From: Syntrophomonadaceae bacterium
GTDB taxonomy: Bacteria; Bacillota; Dethiobacteria; DTU022
DNA length: 54,663 nucleotides
NCBI GenBank assembly: GCA_007119965.1
Contig: SKOR01000024.1
Span: 1 to 54,663 of the forward strand
Direction of reading: 5' to 3'
Positions within the stretch are counted from its first letter, which is position 1, and every line of letters starts with the position of its first letter. This document shows, piece after piece, positions 9,256 to 20,082 of the stretch. A program made the position numbers and the translations under genes. The notes under the pieces are model-generated. The model ran no database searches. It saw nothing but the letters and a program-made list of their open reading frames with translations, and was not told the DNA's origin.

Positions 9256-10296
9256 ATGAAAACTATGCAGGCGGCACAGCTTACCGGGATTGGCAAACCA
9301 CTGGAGATTGCAGAGGTGCCTGTCCCTCAACCGGGGGTGGATGACATCCTGGTGCGGGTCAGGGCTGCGGGGATTTGCAGTTCAGACCTTCATTACCAGG
9401 ACGGCCGCAGTGAGGTGACCAGGCTGCCGATAACCCTGGGCCATGAAGTGTCCGGTGAAGTTGCCGGGCTTGGTGAAAATGTCAGGGGGCTTAAACGTGG
9501 CGACCGGGTCAGCCTTTTTTACCTGGCAACCTGTGGGAAATGCATGATGTGTTCGACAGGAAATGATAATTATTGCAGCGAAGCTGAAATGCTGGGCAAA
9601 AATATTGACGGGGGCTTTGCTGAATACGTTGTGGTTCCGGCCCGCAACGCTTTTCCTTTTCCGGAATCGATCCCCTTTGCCCAGGCGGCGCTGATCACCG
9701 ATGCCGTGGCCACCCCGTTTCACGCCCTGAAGCGGGCTGCTGTTCAAACCGGAGAAAATGTTTTAATTATCGGCATCGGGGGCCTTGGAATCCACGCCGT
9801 GCAGATTGCTAAAATAATGGGAGCCGGCCAGGTAATTGCGATGGACCTTGATGAAGACAAACTTGACCTGGCTGTAAAAGCAGGGGCCACCGCTGTTATT
9901 CACCCGCAGAAAGACACTGCGGAAGATATAATTGGCGCTGCTACCGGTGGACGGGGTATAGACGTGGCCGTGGAACTAATCGGCCTGCCCGCCACGATCA
10001 GGCAGGCTATTGACAGTACCGGCATAGGCGGGCGAATCGTGGTCGTCGGGATCTGCCCGGAAGAAGTCCGCATTAACCCGTATCACGATCTTCTGCTCGG
10101 GGAGCGGACCATCATGGGCAGCGCAGACCAGTGCAGGGCAGATTTCCCCGTAATTATAGAAATGGCCGCCCAAAAGAGACTAAACTTGTCTCATTCAGTC
10201 AGCCTCGAACTGCCCCTGGATCGGATAAACGAGGGATTTGAAATGCTTAAGAAGAAAGACCAAAGCGTGGTCCGGATTGTTGTGACCTTTCCTTAA
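9256..10296 (+). CDS. Zinc-dependent medium-chain alcohol/polyol dehydrogenase
   Basis: A 346-residue MDR-superfamily NAD(P)-dependent dehydrogenase. Catalytic zinc ligands are Cys41, His63 and Glu64 (GHE). Structural zinc is bound by Cys93, 96, 99 and 107 (CGKCMMC...C). The Rossmann GIGGLG is at 173-178, with an acidic residue at the end of the second strand (AMDLDED) favouring NAD. The pattern resembles sorbitol/threonine dehydrogenases, but the substrate is not determinable. AAGGGGAG precedes the ATG. The stop codon overlaps that of the convergent mttB-like gene (TTAA), so the two transcripts run into each other. Confidence 0.9.
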   Translation: MKTMQAAQLTGIGKPLEIAEVPVPQPGVDDILVRVRAAGICSSDLHYQDGRSEVTRLPITLGHEVSGEVAGLGENVRGLKRGDRVSLFYLATCGKCMMCSTGNDNYCSEAEMLGKNIDGGFAEYVVVPARNAFPFPESIPFAQAALITDAVATPFHALKRAAVQTGENVLIIGIGGLGIHAVQIAKIMGAGQVIAMDLDEDKLDLAVKAGATAVIHPQKDTAEDIIGAATGGRGIDVAVELIGLPATIRQAIDSTGIGGRIVVVGICPEEVRINPYHDLLLGERTIMGSADQCRADFPVIIEMAAQKRLNLSHSVSLELPLDRINEGFEMLKKKDQSVVRIVVTFP

Positions 10297-11774
10297 ACTG
10301 AGCCGGTTTTCCACTGCACGTTACCACCTTCGTCCAGGCAAACCAGGTCCGGGAATTCGGCCCTGATCTGCGCGTCCAGTTCAGGCGGTATAATCGGCTC
10401 AGAAGGTTCCGCAAGCAGCTGTGCGGCATAATCTTCAGCCCTTCTCCAGCTGTCTTTACTGCCGGCATCAATCCAGCGCTGGTACGGCTGGCGGTCACTG
10501 GTCTTTGGCGAGTAGAGTTCCGTGCGCATATACCTGACTGTATGCTCTTCACTGAGATAGTTTCCACCGGGGCCGACCTTCGCAATCGCATCATAGGCCA
10601 GGGTGTCCTCATTTATCTCAATGCCGCGCAGGGTGCGCAGGCAGCTGCCAATAATATCATTATCGATAATGTACTGGGCATATGAAGCAGTCATCGCCCC
10701 GTCAAGCATGCCGAAAGCTTCATGGATAAAGTTGCCGCCGGCCAGCGCTGCCAGCATAGCAGTCGAAGCGCTTTCGTGGGCCGCCTGGGCATCGGGCAGC
10801 TTGGAATCGGTAGTGCCAACCGTCAGGTAGCAGGGCAGCCGGTAATAATGGGCCATCTGGGTAATTGCCGCATTCATCAGGCCTGATTCAATACTGCCCA
10901 TCAGAAATGACATTGTCCGCATATCCATGGTAACCGGCACGGCGCTGTAGAGAACCGGAGTGCCCGGGTTAACCAGCTGGGTAAAAATTACCCCCATCAG
11001 GGCTTCTGCATTTTGCTGCACCAGGGTCCCCGCCAGGGTAACCGGCGCCGTTGCCCCTGCCGCAGGCGCGGTTGATGTCGCGAGGGGCAGTCCGTAACGG
11101 GCAACTTCCATTATATACTCGGCATGATCCGAACTTAATTTCAGGGGACTGGTAATAGAAGATATGAAGCCGATAAAAGGCCTGCGCTGCAGTTTTTCCA
11201 TGCTGCCGGCAATTATCGAGGAGATTTTAACTATATCTTCAAGCCCCTGCTTATTAAATATGCCGCCCATCACCGGTTTGCCGGTGTTTAACATCGCCTG
11301 GTACTTAGTATTAACATCGACTGTATCAATGTTTATGTCGTGTGGGTAGGCGGGGATAATAAAGAAATCAAGGTTTTCGAGCCGGTCAGCCAGGCGGGCA
11401 AAATTGGCAACATCCTGCAGTGTTGACGGCCGCTTTTCACGATCTAGATCGAGAACGTATAAAGCCAGCCCTCCTGTGCCGAAATGCACCTGTTTGCCGC
11501 CAACAGTAATGCTCTTGCCTTCCTGCCTGCCGTAAAAAACGAATTCCTCGGGAGCCTGCTTAATCAGGCGGGAAACCATCTCACGGGGCACGTAAACCCG
11601 GTTCCGATCAAAATCGACCGTGGCCCCTTTTGCTTCGAACATCTCCAGGGCGGGAAGGTGATTTATTTCAAATCCCACATTTTCAAGAACCCTGACCGTC
11701 GTCTCGTGGATCTGCCTGATCTCTTTTTCGGACAATACGTGGTAGCTCCCACCTTCATAAATCGGTTGTTTCAT
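10293..11774 (-). CDS. MttB-superfamily methyltransferase (COG5598), non-pyrrolysine, copy 1
   Basis: A 493-residue TIM-barrel methyltransferase of the MttB superfamily, whose members move a methyl group from a quaternary or tertiary amine to a corrinoid protein. Matching blocks include the N-terminal LSEKEIRQIHETTVRVLENVG, a central SITSPLKLS, STAPAAGATAPVTLAG, and the C-terminal KVGPGGNYLSEEHT. The frame has no internal TAG, so it lacks pyrrolysine and belongs with the glycine betaine (MtgB), proline betaine (MtpB) or carnitine (MtcB) demethylases rather than trimethylamine MttB. AGGAGG precedes the ATG. It follows the CBS-protein gene and the quaternary-amine transporter, which supports a betaine-like substrate. 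Confidence 0.88.
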   Translation of the reverse strand: MKQPIYEGGSYHVLSEKEIRQIHETTVRVLENVGFEINHLPALEMFEAKGATVDFDRNRVYVPREMVSRLIKQAPEEFVFYGRQEGKSITVGGKQVHFGTGGLALYVLDLDREKRPSTLQDVANFARLADRLENLDFFIIPAYPHDINIDTVDVNTKYQAMLNTGKPVMGGIFNKQGLEDIVKISSIIAGSMEKLQRRPFIGFISSITSPLKLSSDHAEYIMEVARYGLPLATSTAPAAGATAPVTLAGTLVQQNAEALMGVIFTQLVNPGTPVLYSAVPVTMDMRTMSFLMGSIESGLMNAAITQMAHYYRLPCYLTVGTTDSKLPDAQAAHESASTAMLAALAGGNFIHEAFGMLDGAMTASYAQYIIDNDIIGSCLRTLRGIEINEDTLAYDAIAKVGPGGNYLSEEHTVRYMRTELYSPKTSDRQPYQRWIDAGSKDSWRRAEDYAAQLLAEPSEPIIPPELDAQIRAEFPDLVCLDEGGNVQWKTGSV

Positions 11775-11828: not shown

Positions 11829-12323
11829 TTACTGGTTAATTGAGTCCCAGTTCTTAACCATTGCCGTAATTAAGTCTGCCCTGGTAATAATGCCCAGGAC
11901 CACTTTATTTTTATCGACTACGGGAACCCGGTTAATATTGTTTTCTTTCATCAAGCAGACAACCTCGTAAAGCGGCGTATCAAAGTAAACTGAAATTACA
12001 TCCCTGGTCATTAATGTTTCAACCGTGGTGGATGCCACCAATTCAATCACTTCCACCCCGCGGTGAGTGATGTCGACATGTAATACTTCCTTGCTTTTTG
12101 TGAAAACACGGTGTGGGTCGCGCAGAGGCTGCCCGATTATCTGTTGAGTGTAGCGGAGAATGTCGGTTTCAGACAAAACACCGATTAACACACCCTCGTC
12201 ATCAACGACCGGCACACCGCTAAAGGAGTTTTCATCTAAAATTTCAGCTGCCTTCTTCAGCGGTGTATCGGCCTTTATGGTAATAACAGGCGAACTCATG
12301 ACTTCTTTCGCTAATACAGCCAT
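11829..12323 (-). CDS. Two-CBS-domain protein
   Basis: A small cytosolic protein of 164 residues made of two CBS motifs (about 6-60 and 100-155, the second starting VETLMTRDVISV). Such modules bind adenine nucleotides or SAM-like ligands and regulate partner proteins. GGAGGG lies six bases before the ATG at 12323; an upstream in-frame start has no such site. It is placed between the transporter terminator and mttB copy 1, so a regulatory role in the methyl-transfer pathway is possible but only inferred. Confidence 0.85.
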   Translation of the reverse strand: MAVLAKEVMSSPVITIKADTPLKKAAEILDENSFSGVPVVDDEGVLIGVLSETDILRYTQQIIGQPLRDPHRVFTKSKEVLHVDITHRGVEVIELVASTTVETLMTRDVISVYFDTPLYEVVCLMKENNINRVPVVDKNKVVLGIITRADLITAMVKNWDSINQ

Positions 12324-12369
12324 ACTAATCCCTCCAGATTGGATTGTCAATAAATATATTTAATAATAC

Positions 12370-12493: not shown

Positions 12494-13513
12494 TTACGGC
12501 GCCGGTACACCGCTCATGATTGCTTCAGCAAGATCGCTGATGGTGGTAATACCAAGTTCATCAGCATCTGCCTGGCGCATCATAATGGTGTAAGTGTTGT
12601 CAAACGGGGTATAGTCAAGCCATACCAAACCGTAACGCTCGAGGTCTTCTTCTGCAACTAACGCATAGCATTCCTCGGGGTCGGTAATTGCTTCGTCATA
12701 TCCGAGGTGGGTAATCAGCGCTGTCCCGGTGTATTCCCAGTAAAGGTCTACATCTCCTCTTTCCTGCGCTTCACGGACAACAACAGTTCCACCGAGGCCT
12801 GTTTCATCAACTGTCGGAATGCCATTGTACTCCAGGGCCAGAATTGCAATCTGACCAAGTGTCAACTGCTCGGTGAACTCCTTGGAGCCAACTACTACCG
12901 GTTCCCCGTCACCCATATCTGCAGGATCGTCACCGATAAAGCCTTCTGCCATCAACCATTCTTCGGCTACTTCCACCGGCAGATATTCCTCAATGTCAAC
13001 CTGCATATTCAGGGATGACATTGTATCGGCATCGAGAGCGGCAGCTATGGGGTTAAGAATATCGGCAATCTCCGGATACATTTCCAAGGTTTCTTCACGG
13101 ACTACCGGTGAACAGTTGTAAACCGGGTGGAACTGCTTGTCGTCAACCAGGTTTACCAGTTCGTAAGCGGCAATACGCCCGTCGGTGGCAAAACCCATCG
13201 CTACCGGAACGTCGCCATCCCTTAATGCCCCGTAGGTAATGCCGAGATCCATGGTAACCACATCGGCAAATTCAAAGCCGTACAGTTCCTGCAAACCGGG
13301 ATAACCATCATCACGGATGGAATACTCATGGTCGGTTGCAAAAACCCAGCCGGGATCAACCTCGGCAGGCGGCTCTTCATCAACAGGTTCTTCATCAACA
13401 GGATCAAGAGGATCTTCGACAACTTCCTCGTCAGGCTCGCACCCGATCGCAAACAGCGATCCGGCGACAAGCATTACCATCAAAAACATAACTAACATGC
13501 GCTTCATAATCAT
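12494..13513 (-). CDS. Quaternary-amine ABC transporter binding lipoprotein with swapped (circularly permuted) lobes
   Basis: The substrate-binding lipoprotein of the adjacent transporter (339 residues). A signal peptide ends at the lipobox FAIGC (Cys25) and is followed by an acidic Pro/Glu linker. Residues 55-193 match the second half of OpuCC-type proteins (DGYPGLQELYGFEF, MGFATDGRIAAYEL, DDKQFHPVYNCSPVV, LNMQVDIEE). Residues 205-335 match the first half (VVVGSKEFTEQLTLGQI, WEYTGTAL, FDNTYTI, TISDL). In the canonical proteins these halves come in the opposite order, so this is a circular permutation. Ligand is probably glycine betaine, choline or a relative. It is last in the operon. Confidence 0.88.
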   Translation of the reverse strand: MIMKRMLVMFLMVMLVAGSLFAIGCEPDEEVVEDPLDPVDEEPVDEEPPAEVDPGWVFATDHEYSIRDDGYPGLQELYGFEFADVVTMDLGITYGALRDGDVPVAMGFATDGRIAAYELVNLVDDKQFHPVYNCSPVVREETLEMYPEIADILNPIAAALDADTMSSLNMQVDIEEYLPVEVAEEWLMAEGFIGDDPADMGDGEPVVVGSKEFTEQLTLGQIAILALEYNGIPTVDETGLGGTVVVREAQERGDVDLYWEYTGTALITHLGYDEAITDPEECYALVAEEDLERYGLVWLDYTPFDNTYTIMMRQADADELGITTISDLAEAIMSGVPAP

Positions 13514-13565: not shown

Positions 13566-14288
13566 TTATGTCCACTTAACTACACGTATTTCAATCTGGC
13601 CAATCACGTAATCGAGTATAATAGCGGTTAGTGCGGCCAGGCCGGCCCCGGTAACGATAACCATATCGCGACGTACCGAAAGGCCGGTTACAATTAAATC
13701 GCCGAATCCACCGCCGCCGATAAAAGTTGCCAGGGTAGCTGCCCCAACGTTAATCACAATAGCGGTGCGGATCCCGGCAATAATAATCGGAAAAGCCAGC
13801 GGCAGTTCAATGCGGGTCAAAATCCGAAACTGATTCAGGCCCATGCCCTTGGCTGACTCGATAATGCTATCATCAACACTGGTAATGCCGGCAAATGTAT
13901 TTCTTAAGATAGGCAATATGGAATATAAAAACAGGGCAAAAACCGCCACCCTGAAACCAAGGCCCAGCCAGGTGAAAAACAGGGCGAGAATAGCCAGGCT
14001 GGGTATGGTCTGGCCGACGTTGACCACATTTTCCACACCTCGGCCTAAGTAGTACAGTGAAGGCCGGGAGAGCATAATTCCGACCAGCACGCCAACGGTA
14101 ATTGCGCCAATCATCGAAACAAGCATCAGCATCAGGTGCTCTCGCAAAGCCCTGATTACATTATCGTAAGTAAGCATCCTGGCCACCAGGCCGTCAGTCG
14201 GGTTGTTAACCGTATAAATTACAATAACAACGCCAACGATAACTAAGAACAGCGGTACCAATACCAGTTTATAAAGGTTTTGGAGCAT
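13566..14288 (-). CDS. Quaternary-amine ABC transporter permease (OpuCB/OpuCD-like), second copy
   Basis: 240-residue permease with a short N-terminal hydrophobic segment and the binding-protein-dependent transport core: IESAKGMGLNQFRILTRIELPLAFPIIIAGIRTA is the EAA loop that contacts the ATPase. About six membrane segments. The frame is open further upstream inside the ATPase gene, but AAGGAGG before the ATG at 14288 fixes the start; the ATPase stop lies one base before it. It forms a heterodimer with the first permease in the usual OpuC arrangement. Confidence 0.88.
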   Translation of the reverse strand: MLQNLYKLVLVPLFLVIVGVVIVIYTVNNPTDGLVARMLTYDNVIRALREHLMLMLVSMIGAITVGVLVGIMLSRPSLYYLGRGVENVVNVGQTIPSLAILALFFTWLGLGFRVAVFALFLYSILPILRNTFAGITSVDDSIIESAKGMGLNQFRILTRIELPLAFPIIIAGIRTAIVINVGAATLATFIGGGGFGDLIVTGLSVRRDMVIVTGAGLAALTAIILDYVIGQIEIRVVKWT

Positions 14289-14289
14289 A

Positions 14290-15402
14290 CTAATTATCCT
14301 CCTTGACCACGTTGAGCAGATCGCCCAGGGTAATCGTCCCCGCATATTGATCGTCTTCATTAACGACGGCAACATACCCTTCACCCATTTCAAGCATAAC
14401 CGAAAGGGCATCGTTTAGAGTTGCGTCATCGGTCACCGAGTCGGATATCTTCTGGCAGTAATCACCGGCCACTTCACCCGTCTTTCTCTTCAGGTCGTTG
14501 ACCCCGATAATTCCTTTCAATTTGTTATCGCGATCAACAACAATTACCGACCTGATGTCGCTGTCTTCGATACGTTTTTTAACGTCATCAAGCGGCATAT
14601 CTTCCGGGGCGGGTTTAATCCGGTTGACATCATCCAGTATCTCGCGAATACGGATCAGGTGCAGGCGCTTGATCGAACGGTTCCTGCCCACCAGGTCAGC
14701 CACAAAATCATCGGCCGGCGCACTTAGAAGGTCACCTGGCGTGGCATGCTGGATCAGTTTGCCTTCCCGCATTACAGCAATGGTGTCGCCCATTTTGATC
14801 GCCTCATCGATATCGTGGGTAACAAAGACAATCGTTTTTTCGATCCGTTCCTGGATCCTTAAAAATTCATTCTGCAGACGAGCCCTGGTAATCGGGTCGA
14901 CCGCACCGAAAGGTTCATCCATCAGCATAATCGGCGGGTCTGAGACCATGGCCCTGGCCACACCGACCCGCTGCCGCTGCCCGCCGCTTAAAGCGGAAGG
15001 GTAACGTTTGCGGTATATTTTCGGGTCAAGGCCAACTAAAGTCATCATTTCGTCGACCTTTTTATCGGTTTTATCCTTCGGCCATTTTTTTTCATTGGGC
15101 ACGGTGGCTACGTTTTCTTCAATGGTCATATGCGGGAAAAGTCCGATCTCCTGGATCACGTAGCCGATATCGAGACGCAGGTTAATCGGATTCATTTTTA
15201 AGGCATCTTCGCCTTTGATGTATATCTTGCCTTCAGTCGGTTCATGAATCCGGTTGATCATTTTCATCGTGGTTGTCTTGCCACAGCCTGAGGGCCCAAC
15301 CAAAACACAGACGTCACCCTCTTTGACTTCCAGGTTTAAATCTTTCACTGCGGGAATTTTCATCCCCGGGAACTTTTTGGTAACATTATCCAGTTTGATC
15401 AT
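14290..15402 (-). CDS. Quaternary-amine ABC transporter ATPase with CBS domains (OpuCA-like)
   Basis: 370 residues. Walker A GPSGCGKTT is near residues 36-44, the signature LSGGQRQR near 138, and Walker B LMDEPFGAVDP near 160. A C-terminal pair of CBS motifs covers about 240-370, as in OpuCA/ProV-type ATPases, where the CBS pair senses ionic strength or a nucleotide such as c-di-AMP. It sits between the two permease genes with gaps of one and six bases. Its role is import of betaine-type solutes, here possibly as methyl donors as well as osmoprotectants. Confidence 0.9.
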   Translation of the reverse strand: MIKLDNVTKKFPGMKIPAVKDLNLEVKEGDVCVLVGPSGCGKTTTMKMINRIHEPTEGKIYIKGEDALKMNPINLRLDIGYVIQEIGLFPHMTIEENVATVPNEKKWPKDKTDKKVDEMMTLVGLDPKIYRKRYPSALSGGQRQRVGVARAMVSDPPIMLMDEPFGAVDPITRARLQNEFLRIQERIEKTIVFVTHDIDEAIKMGDTIAVMREGKLIQHATPGDLLSAPADDFVADLVGRNRSIKRLHLIRIREILDDVNRIKPAPEDMPLDDVKKRIEDSDIRSVIVVDRDNKLKGIIGVNDLKRKTGEVAGDYCQKISDSVTDDATLNDALSVMLEMGEGYVAVVNEDDQYAGTITLGDLLNVVKEDN

Positions 15403-15408
15403 ATTATA

Positions 15409-16134
15409 TTACCTCCCTGACTTGCCCACTGCGGCAAAACGTCGTTCACCCCAGGACAGTATAAAGTCAAATGCAAGGGCTATAACAGACACCCCGAGAG
15501 CGCCAACGATAATCATCGGTTCGCTGGATCGCGATATGCCCTGGAAAATCAACTCACCCAGGCCGCCGGCGCCAACATAAGCGGCAATCGCTGCTATACC
15601 GACAATCATGACCGTGGCAGTGCGGATTCCGGCCATTATGACCGGCCGGGCCAGCGGTATCTTGATCTTGGTTAAAATCCGCCACTCGGTCATCCCCATC
15701 GCCTTGGCCGATTCAATTACCGCCGGACTGATCTCTCTAATCCCGGTAAAGGTATTGCGAACTATCGGTAGAAGGCTATACAGGATCAGGGCCATCACAC
15801 CGGTGGTAAAGCCAATTCCAAATAAAGGCACCATAAAACCCAACATGGCCATACTCGGTATAGTCATCAAAACCTGGCATACCGCCAGGACTGGTGGAGA
15901 CACATTCGTGTAGTAGCTGATAAAAATACCGATGACTACAGAGACAACAACAGCAATAACAATCGAAACTATGACCAGCCAGAGGTGCTCCAGCATCAAC
16001 TCCCAGACCATGTCACCACGGCGGTCCAGGTAGGCGATAACCCGTCTGAAAGTCGACGGGGTATCTGCAGCAATAAAAATCCTGCTCCCTGCTGCCCTGA
16101 AAGTGTCAAGCAAAAATCCAACAGATGATATCAT
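15409..16134 (-). CDS. Quaternary-amine ABC transporter permease (OpuCB-like), first gene of the operon
   Basis: 241-residue permease with about six membrane segments and the EAA loop IESAKAMGMTEWRILTKIKIPLARPVIMAGIRTA. It resembles the second permease of the operon closely in this loop, so both probably arose by duplication. It starts the transcript. GGGAGGGG lies about 11 bases before the ATG. The N-terminal 45 residues before the first membrane helix are longer than in OpuCB. Confidence 0.87.
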   Translation of the reverse strand: MISSVGFLLDTFRAAGSRIFIAADTPSTFRRVIAYLDRRGDMVWELMLEHLWLVIVSIVIAVVVSVVIGIFISYYTNVSPPVLAVCQVLMTIPSMAMLGFMVPLFGIGFTTGVMALILYSLLPIVRNTFTGIREISPAVIESAKAMGMTEWRILTKIKIPLARPVIMAGIRTATVMIVGIAAIAAYVGAGGLGELIFQGISRSSEPMIIVGALGVSVIALAFDFILSWGERRFAAVGKSGR

Positions 16135-16513: not shown

Positions 16514-17761
16514 TTATTTTACTACCTGGACTACAGCTACCAGGCCGTGAGCCAGGCCCTGCCCGCTTTGCAGGTTCATTTCCAGGCTGCGCAGGGCATA
16601 GCCCAGCTGGGCTTCAATCAGATCTGCCCTGATATCGCCATAAAGGCCACGGCTGCCTTCCAGGGTCTGCCGCATAACCCGGTATGCTTTCTCCAGGGGC
16701 TTCACCTTGGTCTGAGGCGGGTAGGGCAGCAGCGCCTCATCATTGTCATGATGCTTCATCAGGAACATTGTGTAGTCAACCAGGGCATTCCAGGAATCGG
16801 CAAGGGTTTGCAGGGATTCATTTTGCCAGTCAAAACCTTTTCTCGGCCTGAAACTGACCTTAAGATCGGGGAAATAGGTCCTCAAACCCCGCTCAAAAAG
16901 AGATGAAACCATCAACCGCAGGGGCTGCGGGTTGCCGTTATAAGTGCCTGTTTCTATGTGGCGGCCCACAAACAGGGAGCGATCAAAATAGCGTAAAACC
17001 TTCAGCTCTACTCCAGCTTTTCGTGAAGCACTTTCAAGCACCTTATCTACTTCAGGTGGTGACATAAGCCGCAGTGGAAATGAAGATACTTCTACGCTGT
17101 CCCTATCCTGCTCTGAATACAGGTAGTTAATCAAGTAATCAATATAGGGCTGTTCTTCCGGTTTATCCGTCCAGAGATCCTGCCACTCATAGGAGTAACG
17201 CCCGATAAAGTCGCAAAGGAGCAGGCTTCCGTCGTTGCCATGCCTGGCAACATCGATAAATAGCTTCTCCAGTTCTTGATCATTGCAGTGAGAAAGGGTT
17301 CCGAAGGATGTAAAGTAAAGATCGTACGGCTCTTCACCCTCTTCCAGGGGCAGGCCGTTCGAAAAATTACCCTTGCAAAAATCAACGTTTTCATAATCGC
17401 CAAACTGGTTGTTTGCTTCTTTTAAGAGATCTACATTCAAATCGATACCCTTGTAATGAGACATCATTTCTTCCTGGATCAGGCGGTTATCAAATTCTGA
17501 CAGCTTGGTTTTTTTGGCCATCTTGGTTAACAGGTCATAACCATCGCCGGTCCCACAACCCAGGTCATAAAAACGCAGTCCCCCGCCGCCATTGTTTTCT
17601 TTCCTTTCGACCAGTTCTTCCAGGTAAGGCCTCAGGTAAAAGGCGGTAATAAAATCTTCAAACTGGATACGGACATGGTCATACTTACAGCGCAAATCGT
17701 TTACTTTTTCACTGTAGCGACCATGTTGTATCGCTTCCAAGTAAGCTTTATCGGCTTCCAT
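16514..17761 (-). CDS. SAM-dependent class I methyltransferase in the MttB operon
   Basis: A 415-residue protein with the class I motif DLGCGTG at residues 66-72, the acidic residue after strand 2 (GIDLNVD) and a FTSFGTLSH post-II/III region. The C-terminal 150 residues, including SFRPRKGFDWQNES, are not recognised. It starts 34 bases after the corrinoid-protein stop with a good AAGGAGAT, so it is the third gene of the mttB-corrinoid operon. The substrate is unknown. It might methylate an amine that the pathway later demethylates, or a modification target; both are inference. Confidence 0.75.
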   Translation of the reverse strand: MEADKAYLEAIQHGRYSEKVNDLRCKYDHVRIQFEDFITAFYLRPYLEELVERKENNGGGGLRFYDLGCGTGDGYDLLTKMAKKTKLSEFDNRLIQEEMMSHYKGIDLNVDLLKEANNQFGDYENVDFCKGNFSNGLPLEEGEEPYDLYFTSFGTLSHCNDQELEKLFIDVARHGNDGSLLLCDFIGRYSYEWQDLWTDKPEEQPYIDYLINYLYSEQDRDSVEVSSFPLRLMSPPEVDKVLESASRKAGVELKVLRYFDRSLFVGRHIETGTYNGNPQPLRLMVSSLFERGLRTYFPDLKVSFRPRKGFDWQNESLQTLADSWNALVDYTMFLMKHHDNDEALLPYPPQTKVKPLEKAYRVMRQTLEGSRGLYGDIRADLIEAQLGYALRSLEMNLQSGQGLAHGLVAVVQVVK

Positions 17762-17795
17762 TTCAGAACATCTCCTTGTTGGTTATAATTTTCGC

Positions 17796-18479
17796 TTATT
17801 TAAGCAATTTCTCGGCTTCCCGAATGGCGGCAAAAGCATCTTTGCCGTAGCTGTCGGCACCGATTTCTTTAGCAAAATCTTCAGAGGTGGGGGCACCCCC
17901 GATCAGGACTTTAACTTTATCACGAAGCCCTTTTTGCTCCAGCTCTTTAACAACGTCGCCCATATTCGACATGGTGGTGTTAAGCAGGGCAGACAGGCCA
18001 ACCAGTCCTGCTCCTTCTTCTTCGGCTGCCTCAGCTATCCGGGCGGCGGGCACATCAATGCCGAGATCAACTACTGTAAAACCGGCCCCTTTAAGCATGA
18101 TGCTGACCAGGTTTTTGCCGATATCATGCAGGTCCTTTTCAACCGTGGCCATGACCACCTTTCCTTTGCCGCTGCCGCCTTCCCCTTTAACCAGGTGAGG
18201 CTCCATAACTTTCATTCCTTCTTCGACTGCTTCCGCAGCGGTTAGCATATCGGGAATAAAGTACTCCCCTGTCTCATATTTTTCTCCAACCAACTCCATG
18301 CCGCGGCTTAAGCCGTTAAGCAGGATGTCGTTGGTATCGGTGCCGCTATCAAGGGCTTTCTGAACAAGTTCAGCCACGCCGGGATCCCCGGTCATTCCTT
18401 CCTCGATGCCTTCGTCATCCTTGTTGCGGCGTCCCTGCAGGACATTGTTCACAATTTGCTCAATCAGGTCTTTACTCAT
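17796..18479 (-). CDS. Corrinoid (B12-binding) methyl carrier protein, MtbC/MttC-like
   Basis: A 227-residue two-domain corrinoid protein. The helical cap (about 1-95, GMELVGEKYETGEYFIPDML) precedes a B12-binding Rossmann domain with DLHDIG, the D-x-H-x-x-G motif whose His is the lower ligand of cobalt. The later GLSALL and GGAPTS loops are also seen. AGGAGG lies four bases before one ATG and seven before a second; the second (18479) is preferred. It receives the methyl group from the upstream MttB homologue, whose gene ends 70 bases earlier. Confidence 0.93.
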   Translation of the reverse strand: MSKDLIEQIVNNVLQGRRNKDDEGIEEGMTGDPGVAELVQKALDSGTDTNDILLNGLSRGMELVGEKYETGEYFIPDMLTAAEAVEEGMKVMEPHLVKGEGGSGKGKVVMATVEKDLHDIGKNLVSIMLKGAGFTVVDLGIDVPAARIAEAAEEEGAGLVGLSALLNTTMSNMGDVVKELEQKGLRDKVKVLIGGAPTSEDFAKEIGADSYGKDAFAAIREAEKLLK

Positions 18480-18549
18480 CATTTGTCCTCCTTATTGAAA
18501 ACTCGGGAGGCAGCCTGGCCAGTTGCCTCCCGCTTATTAACTTCTTCAG

Positions 18550-20082
18550 CTATTTATACGGGTTTAACCTGGGCAGCAACCCCGGAATCTTATCAAAGAT
18601 CTCCTTGCAGACATCTTCCGAAAGGTACTGCGGTTCCCTTGCTTCCAGTTCCTTTAAATGCTCATGGACATTAAGAAGGGTCTGATCCTGGTCTTCAGAC
18701 TCGCCCTCGAAGGGGAACCCGCCAAAGATTTCGCCGCGCCTCAGCATACCGCGGGCATAACGGGCATACATCCTGTACGGGCTGTGCATTACTTCCTGCA
18801 CAGTTTTTTTGGTCCGTTCAATTGCCTCTTCAGTTATGCCGCTTTCCCGGTGAAGGAATTTGGCCATACCAATCTTGTGGTTGTCAAGCACTGCCTGCTC
18901 AGGAGAGAAGGTCTGTGTTTTGTCCAGCAGGCCGAAAGCATAGTGAACCAGGCCGGGTGCTGCAAAAGGAACAGCAGTGTAGGTATACATTTTTTCCACA
19001 GATGCCTGGATCCCGGGAACTTTTGCGTCCCCTACGCCAGCGGTTGAATAGCAGGGCACCTTGTAGTATCGGGCCATCTGGGCGCAATCCATGTTGTAAT
19101 GGCAAAACTCGGGCACGCCATACATATCGTGGAGATCATCCATACGAGCCCGGACGGGAACTGCACCGTAAATTACAGGTGCACCAGGGTTAGCCAGCTG
19201 GTTAATGGTAATCCCGGCCAGGGCTTCGGCGTTGACCTGGGCAACCATGCCCACTTCGTCAATCGGGGCTGTAGAACCGCCCTGGGGCGAAGTGGAGATC
19301 ACAACAGGAAGGCCAAGCCTGGCAATGGCAATCAGTTTTTCCGCTGTTTCGGCCACAATCTGCAGGGGGCTCTTGACTACACTGGTGATAAAAGAAACTA
19401 CCGGGTTTTTAACCAGCTCATCCCGGCCACCGACAATAATCTCGGCCATTTTAACCACCTGTTCCAACTGATCGAAATCGGCAACTCCGCTGACAACAGG
19501 CTTGGTGATGTTATTTAATGCGGCAAAAAATACATTAACATCCTTGTTCTCAGTGGTGACATCTGTATCCTGAACATTGACGTTGCGGATGAAAAAATCC
19601 AGGTTCTCGAGTTGTTCAGATAAGTGCGCTGAGCGGCAAAGGTATTCAAGGCTGCCGCGGTTCCTCTTCATAATCGGAAGCACCCGCTCACGGCCGTCTT
19701 CCGTTGATGTAAATTTTTCCGGTTTAACTTCCAGCCAGTAATTGGTTTCCGAACCGCTGCCGAAGTGAACCCTGTTGCCTTCGGCCTCTAAGATTACCTT
19801 GTTTTCCGGGTTGCGAGCCCCCAGGGTAACTGTGGCAGGCACGGTATCTAAGGCCTGCTTTACTACTTTAGCCGGAATACTGACCCACCAGGCATCGTGC
19901 TCGCCTTCACGGGTGGCCTTAGCCGTGGCACCGGCTTTTTCAAGCATGGTGACACTTTCTTCGTGATAACATAATATACCCGGATTTTCCAGGAGATCTA
20001 AAGATGCCTTGTCGATCATCTCCATCTGCTCCCGGCTTAACCGGGCATACGGCTTATGAACTACTATTCCTCTCTCACTCAA
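18550..20082 (-). CDS. MttB-superfamily methyltransferase, non-pyrrolysine, copy 2 (first gene of the corrinoid operon)
   Basis: A 510-residue COG5598 methyltransferase with matching blocks LSREQMEMIDKASLDLLENPG, SFITSVVKSPLQIV, STSPQGGSTAPIDEVG and a C-terminal ARGMLRRGEIFGG. No in-frame TAG, hence no pyrrolysine. It is only distantly similar to copy 1. Its start is TTG at 20082, and an in-frame stop lies just upstream. The strong AAGGAGGTG is 32 bases away, with a perfect 8-bp hairpin between. The gene pairs with the corrinoid protein downstream, so this copy is the likely working methyltransferase. The leader carries an intrinsic terminator. Confidence 0.88.
   Translation of the reverse strand: MSERGIVVHKPYARLSREQMEMIDKASLDLLENPGILCYHEESVTMLEKAGATAKATREGEHDAWWVSIPAKVVKQALDTVPATVTLGARNPENKVILEAEGNRVHFGSGSETNYWLEVKPEKFTSTEDGRERVLPIMKRNRGSLEYLCRSAHLSEQLENLDFFIRNVNVQDTDVTTENKDVNVFFAALNNITKPVVSGVADFDQLEQVVKMAEIIVGGRDELVKNPVVSFITSVVKSPLQIVAETAEKLIAIARLGLPVVISTSPQGGSTAPIDEVGMVAQVNAEALAGITINQLANPGAPVIYGAVPVRARMDDLHDMYGVPEFCHYNMDCAQMARYYKVPCYSTAGVGDAKVPGIQASVEKMYTYTAVPFAAPGLVHYAFGLLDKTQTFSPEQAVLDNHKIGMAKFLHRESGITEEAIERTKKTVQEVMHSPYRMYARYARGMLRRGEIFGGFPFEGESEDQDQTLLNVHEHLKELEAREPQYLSEDVCKEIFDKIPGLLPRLNPYK

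Follow-up and report, generated by a model that had tools for sequence, protein, structure and literature searches.

A putative quaternary-amine-binding lipoprotein beside an mttB cluster is a probably functional circular permutant in a family with repeatedly switched half order

Introduction

The binding lipoprotein encoded beside a methyltransferase gene of the MttB superfamily in the DNA analysed here (the window, the whole stretch of 54,663 nucleotides) carries the two halves of its body in the reverse of the canonical order, and this raises the question of whether such a protein can still serve as a transport receptor and how its order came about. A report of 2008 described circular permutation for glycine-betaine-binding proteins on the basis of the structures 2B4L, 1R9L and 1SW1 (PMC2395249), and the OpuAC of B. 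subtilis in that report bears out the remark, made in a sequence-only reading of this DNA, that changes of domain order are on record among betaine-binding proteins. The answer that we reached is that the lipoprotein, which belongs to a putative quaternary-amine importer feeding an MttB cluster, is a probably functional circular permutant of the OpuCC/OsmF type that most likely arose by duplication and whose allele would have been exchanged between lineages.

Results

The open reading frame of the binding protein lies at 12494-13513 on the minus strand and encodes 339 residues, which begin with a lipoprotein signal and an acidic tether and continue as a body of two parts (Table 1). It stands in the operon that is conserved for its family, with the order permease 1, ATPase, permease 2, binding protein, CBS protein, mttB1 and adh. 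To judge from the gene assignments, the content of this operon suggests quaternary-amine import for corrinoid-dependent demethylation, comparable with that in glycine-betaine-fermenting bacteria (PMC9768040), and the lipoprotein would serve the ABC importer that supplies the MttB-type demethylation cluster. For the protein itself we infer a betaine-, choline- or carnitine-like ligand and a role in transport. The gene is under purifying selection, with dN/dS of about 0.04, at saturated dS, both against its permuted counterpart in genome G020 and against its canonical orthologue in the same-genus genome G004, which has the same operon. Many family members carry a stand-alone protein with two CBS domains at the same operon place, and the ATPase already has CBS domains of its own; the stand-alone protein is a possible regulator.

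Table 1. Features of the importer operon and parts of the binding protein, in window coordinates
Feature	Position	Strand	Remarks
MttB-superfamily methyltransferase 1	10293..11774	(-)	
Two-CBS-domain protein between binding protein and mttB1	11829..12350	(-)	
Binding protein, new C-terminus (end of GVPAP and stop)	12494..12508	(-)	from comparison with canonical orthologues
Binding protein, residues 205-335, canonical first half (Pfam OpuAC 2-110)	12509..12901	(-)	pocket K211, Q216, Y261, T264, N306, Y308
Binding protein, new internal junction, residues 194-204 (GDDPADMGDGE)	12902..12934	(-)	old C-terminus to old N-terminus
Binding protein, residues 55-193, canonical second half (Pfam OpuAC 115-255)	12935..13351	(-)	pocket E63, R67, F108, Y132
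Binding protein, lipidated Cys25 and acidic Pro/Glu/Asp tether, residues 25-54	13352..13441	(-)	pLDDT mostly about 50-55
Binding protein, lipoprotein signal peptide, residues 1-24	13442..13513	(-)	lipobox LFAIG|C25; helix 2-22 in model
Permease 2 of importer (BPD_transp_1)	13566..14288	(-)	start codon chosen within longer ORF
ATPase with two CBS domains (OpuAA/ProV type)	14290..15402	(-)	above NCBIfam proV cut-off
Permease 1 of importer (BPD_transp_1)	15409..16134	(-)	
SAM-type methyltransferase-like protein, corrinoid protein (MtgC/MtbC type) and MttB-superfamily methyltransferase 2	16514..20082	(-)	

The sequence-only reading had aligned residues 55-193 with the second half of OpuCC-type proteins and residues 205-335 with the first, and both searches confirmed this assignment. 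In phmmer against the PDB, query residues 68-193 matched chain residues 164-289 of an OpuCC-type protein and query residues 197-330 matched chain residues 11-147 (E 2e-47). The Pfam profile OpuAC (PF04069) scored 182.6 bits against a cut-off of 21.2. Its match falls into two stretches, with profile positions 115-255 preceding 2-110, and each stretch alone was above the cut-off. The E-values of these searches exclude a chance match. The NCBIfam OsmF equivalog NF049931 was also matched in two stretches, with 175.9 bits, which is below the required 400. Since the halves match different regions of the OpuAC profile, two copies of one lobe were ruled out. The old ends would be joined by the acidic linker and the new ends would lie in the loop that follows helix ISDLA, and where the new C-terminus lies the canonical orthologues continue (GVEAPEPGEW..) into the second half. 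We take the cut to fall near residue 136 in A. fulgidus ProX (AfProX) numbering, inside lobe B, the lobe limits being those that we presume for the ProX fold. A cut within lobe B means that sequence halves and not entire lobes are swapped, and the description of two lobes in reversed order thus stands as regards the swap itself and fails as regards the lobe boundary.

The AlphaFold2 model of the window protein, for which 21 permuted proteins were aligned, reached a pLDDT of 91.4 and a pTM of 0.80, with all blocks of the body above 90. A complete two-lobed fold is predicted from the swapped order, and this, together with the swapped profile order, upholds the proposal of a circular permutation relative to OpuCC. 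When the model was compared with the PDB, a full-length match in chain order was obtained only with B. subtilis OpuAC (242-247 residues, Z 17-18, 13-14% identity), the best being 2b4m with Z 18.1 and 13% identity over 247 aligned residues (VIA-align), and the next structure followed at Z 9.7. OpuCC, OpuBC and OpuCC-like sensor proteins were matched over one half only (~140 columns, ~2 A, at most 38% identity), because a structure alignment that preserves chain order covers one half when the halves are swapped. As a control, the model of the canonical G004 orthologue matched OpuBC, OpuCC, OsmF and AfProX over about 265-275 residues with Z 30-33; for E. coli ProX, ChoX and L. lactis OpuAC, Z was about 18. 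B. subtilis OpuAC was absent among the 50 structure matches listed for it. As modelled, the window protein combines a sequence of the OpuCC/OsmF family with the topology that the chain takes in B. subtilis OpuAC.

For the ligand pocket, AfProX was the reference, its sequence being identical to the PDB copy, and we take K13, Q18, T66 and E145 to be pocket positions additional to the tabulated ones. The ligand residues of the published table are Y63, D109, Y111, R149, Y190 and Y214 (PMC10087775). In the window protein, K13, Q18, Y63, T66 and D109 correspond to K211, Q216, Y261, T264 and N306, and Y111, E145, R149, Y190 and Y214 correspond to Y308, E63, R67, F108 and Y132. All ten positions are conserved or conservatively replaced (Y190 by F, D109 by N), and the residues at them agree with those of most canonical orthologues. 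Because the pocket residues are drawn from both swapped halves, the halves must fold together, and a single two-lobed fold with an aromatic pocket built from both is what the model predicts. Permuted and canonical orthologues share one structure in these models, with the pocket formed by equivalent residues, and with a complete fold and such a pocket, ligand binding and permease docking would be expected to proceed as in the canonical orthologues. In the permuted chain lobe A would be continuous, and the lipid tether would enter via lobe B instead of lobe A. The window protein is a real and probably functional circular permutant, and the process behind it has recurred in its family.

Proteins with both halves numbered 86, mostly from contigs of metagenome-assembled genomes; 37 were permuted and 49 canonical, and one single-contig genome has two permuted copies. 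The permuted proteins fall into several groups: the window protein with G020; L039/L097/L098; a group of Thermanaeromonas-, Desulfotomaculum- and Desulforudis-type genomes (L040-L044, L106-L110), to which the one-contig genome of 2.36 Mb with two permuted copies belongs; L012, L018, L020 and L025; and an orphan group that includes the second permuted gene of the window genome, on contig 91. In the one-contig genome G351 a whole importer operon with a permuted binding protein stands as a tandem duplicate (binding proteins L128:6136-7101 and L128:10075-11052), in which the permeases and ATPases look near-identical and the binding proteins are already diverging. A special tie between the swapped order and the MttB locus had also been proposed. 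The same mttB operon has a canonical binding protein in G004, G009-G012, G014 and G034 and a permuted one in the window and in G020. For many of the permuted relatives, moreover, the DNA that was read lacks an mttB gene. With both orders occurring beside MttB, the permutation is not an MttB trait, and this proposal was rejected.

For the phylogeny of 74 proteins the halves were aligned separately and concatenated in canonical order. The order changes 8 times on the best tree, and at least 6 of these changes are forced by supported branches. A single clade of all permuted proteins appeared in none of the 200 bootstrap trees and was rejected by the AU test for both halves jointly (p 2.3e-5) and for each half (p 3e-4 for the N-half, 1.5e-45 for the C-half). 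The grouping of the window protein with G020 has modest support (79/92), and the two stand apart from L039/L097/L098 (p 4.8e-4, for a subgroup defined after inspection of the tree). A second cut site was found in L138-L140 (G925 and G986, from one order of Actinomycetota), which are permuted after GFEIPxG, about 25 residues beyond the Bacillota cut, and have canonical relatives of the same taxonomic order (L141-L150) that are up to 82% identical; the different cut site and these close orthologues make the Actinomycetota permutants independent. In a Thermodesulfobacteriota sample of 247 genomes, a permuted match was absent at E 1e-42. The order of the halves has switched repeatedly in the OpuCC/OsmF-type family.

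The direction of change in the window family could also be the opposite one, an ancestral permuted gene having reverted so that the canonical orthologues are derived. The long middle linker of these orthologues (INEGVEAPEPGEW) indeed resembles a permuted C-terminus fused to a permuted N-terminus, but the canonical order is that of the majority (18 of 20 rows) in the clade holding the window gene, and also in sampled distant relatives, and we regard reversion as unlikely. Less probable still, and already refuted in large part, is a single ancient permutation, in which transfer, recombination or tree error would account for the canonical relatives within permuted groups. Its attractions are the similar junction linkers in the larger permuted groups (..APxxxKGxIxVGSKEF), the cut in the same loop across all Bacillota groups and the weak forks of the tree backbone; it is opposed by the AU results, joint and for each half, and by the Actinomycetota permutants with their own cut site and close canonical orthologues.

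Two orders occur at one operon position, and most of the genes around this position tell a different history from the binding protein. Between the window and G004 the permeases, ATPase and MttB1 are 92-96% identical and between the window and G020 80-83% (a cut-off permease 1 aside). For the binding protein, identity is 85-89% per half with that of G004 and 86% with that of G020. When G011 served as the fourth taxon, quartet sites that unite the window with G004 and those that unite it with G020 stood at 57:7 in the flanks but at 4:13 in the binding protein (Fisher p 3e-7), and with other fourth taxa the p values were 0.003 (G012) and 0.0004 (G010). The upstream DNA and the signal peptide of the window gene are nearly identical to those of G004 (signal peptide 92% in the best-matching part), and the internal junction of G020 (GDDPVEMGSGDP) is about the same as that of the window protein. 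The gene tree of the binding protein conflicts with the operon phylogeny. These sequence comparisons fit a recombination between lineages, in one direction or the other, that replaced the body of the gene, with a permuted allele common to the window and G020. It is a speculative and rather improbable extension that chain order is an exchangeable, possibly selected trait: lineages would swap permuted and canonical alleles of one operon, and attaching the lipid anchor to lobe B instead of lobe A would tune opening, closing or docking and leave the pocket untouched.

As to the origin of the order, each permutation would most likely have begun with a tandem duplication of the gene whose two copies fused, the outer halves being lost afterwards; permutation by duplication is a described route (PMC3320104). 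Two observations are supporting signs for this likely route. Tandem canonical binding-protein genes occur in G034 (L055:3485-5510, the same as the L080 pair) where the window has one permuted gene, and the internal junction of the Actinomycetota permutants retains the old mature N-terminal stretch (GDxSLDGA, then strand and SKDF). Fused N-C-N-C or half-trimmed intermediates were found in none of the 86 proteins, and remnants of lost halves were not seen in the 143-bp gap downstream of the window gene, the latter part of which resembles the gap in G004. A 642-residue open reading frame of G034 was considered as a fused double binding protein and rejected, as it is a kinase fusion.

Discussion

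The halves of the window protein are ~35-40% identical to the solved members OpuCC, OpuBC, OsmF (YehZ) and A. fulgidus ProX, with which it shares the pocket positions and the kind of operon, but the canonical full-length order of OpuCC, OsmF and AfProX is not kept, the halves being swapped. B. subtilis OpuAC (2B4L/2B4M), a known permutant (PMC2395249), has the same chain topology, but it is not closer in sequence than OpuCC and is absent from the 27 sequence matches of the window protein; with so low a structural identity and no sequence match, the shared topology looks convergent. Moreover, that OpuAC is an old separate subfamily, whereas the window protein has close canonical orthologues. 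Permuted forms of DNA methyltransferases are reportedly distant. Several permuted orders in one family, with duplication as the proposed route, are described for these enzymes as they are here, to judge from the citation of Jeltsch 1999 in PMC3320104. Unlike DNA methyltransferases, the window family varies its order among orthologues at one operon position. In the open-access literature no report was found of OpuCC/OsmF-type proteins with a permuted chain, nor of permutation that happened repeatedly between close orthologues. As far as this literature shows, permutation in betaine-binding proteins is known; what is new is that it recurs in close orthologues occupying one operon position, where the alleles show signs of replacement.

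As a rule, natural circular permutants have come to light as remote pairs without surviving intermediates. In this family the switch has been caught many times and at two different cut sites, among orthologues of the same operon whose halves reach 85-89% identity, and such near-isogenic natural pairs make the origin, cost and effect of permutation directly testable. There is also a warning for annotation, since permuted proteins can miss full-length family cut-offs because of their chain order.

That the window protein is a decayed or repurposed copy which no longer acts as a transporter receptor seems very unlikely to us. The window genome (G000) does have a canonical paralogue, with 72-78% identity per half, on contig 44 as well as the orphan permuted paralogue with an altered pocket on contig 91, but the window copy lies within a complete importer operon, has kept its pocket and is under purifying selection. 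An assembly or binning artefact, by which a mis-joined contig made the swapped order, can practically be dismissed: the source genome consists of 120 contigs, but the same order is found at the same operon position in the independent assembly G020/JAGYMW010000035, the 37 permuted proteins are distinct and include two in a one-contig genome, and the reading frame runs unbroken through both junctions with low dN/dS. The reading of a functional, recurrently arising permutant is the one that we prefer.

Orphan permuted paralogues without nearby importer genes were seen on contig 91 of G000 (L077:6185-7147 (+)) and in L094, L095, L091, L085 and L087. In these the equivalents of AfProX R149 and Y214 are lost and those of Y63 and Y111 mostly kept, and they are possibly sensors or receptors for another ligand; the gene adjoining that of L077 is a weak match to undecaprenyl-diphosphatase models. 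In G034, an open reading frame on contig 190 (L079:1-1928 (+)), which extends past the contig start, combines a Hanks-type Ser/Thr protein kinase, assigned by eye, with a membrane segment and a canonical OpuCC/OsmF-type binding domain, and this fusion looks like a betaine-sensing receptor kinase.
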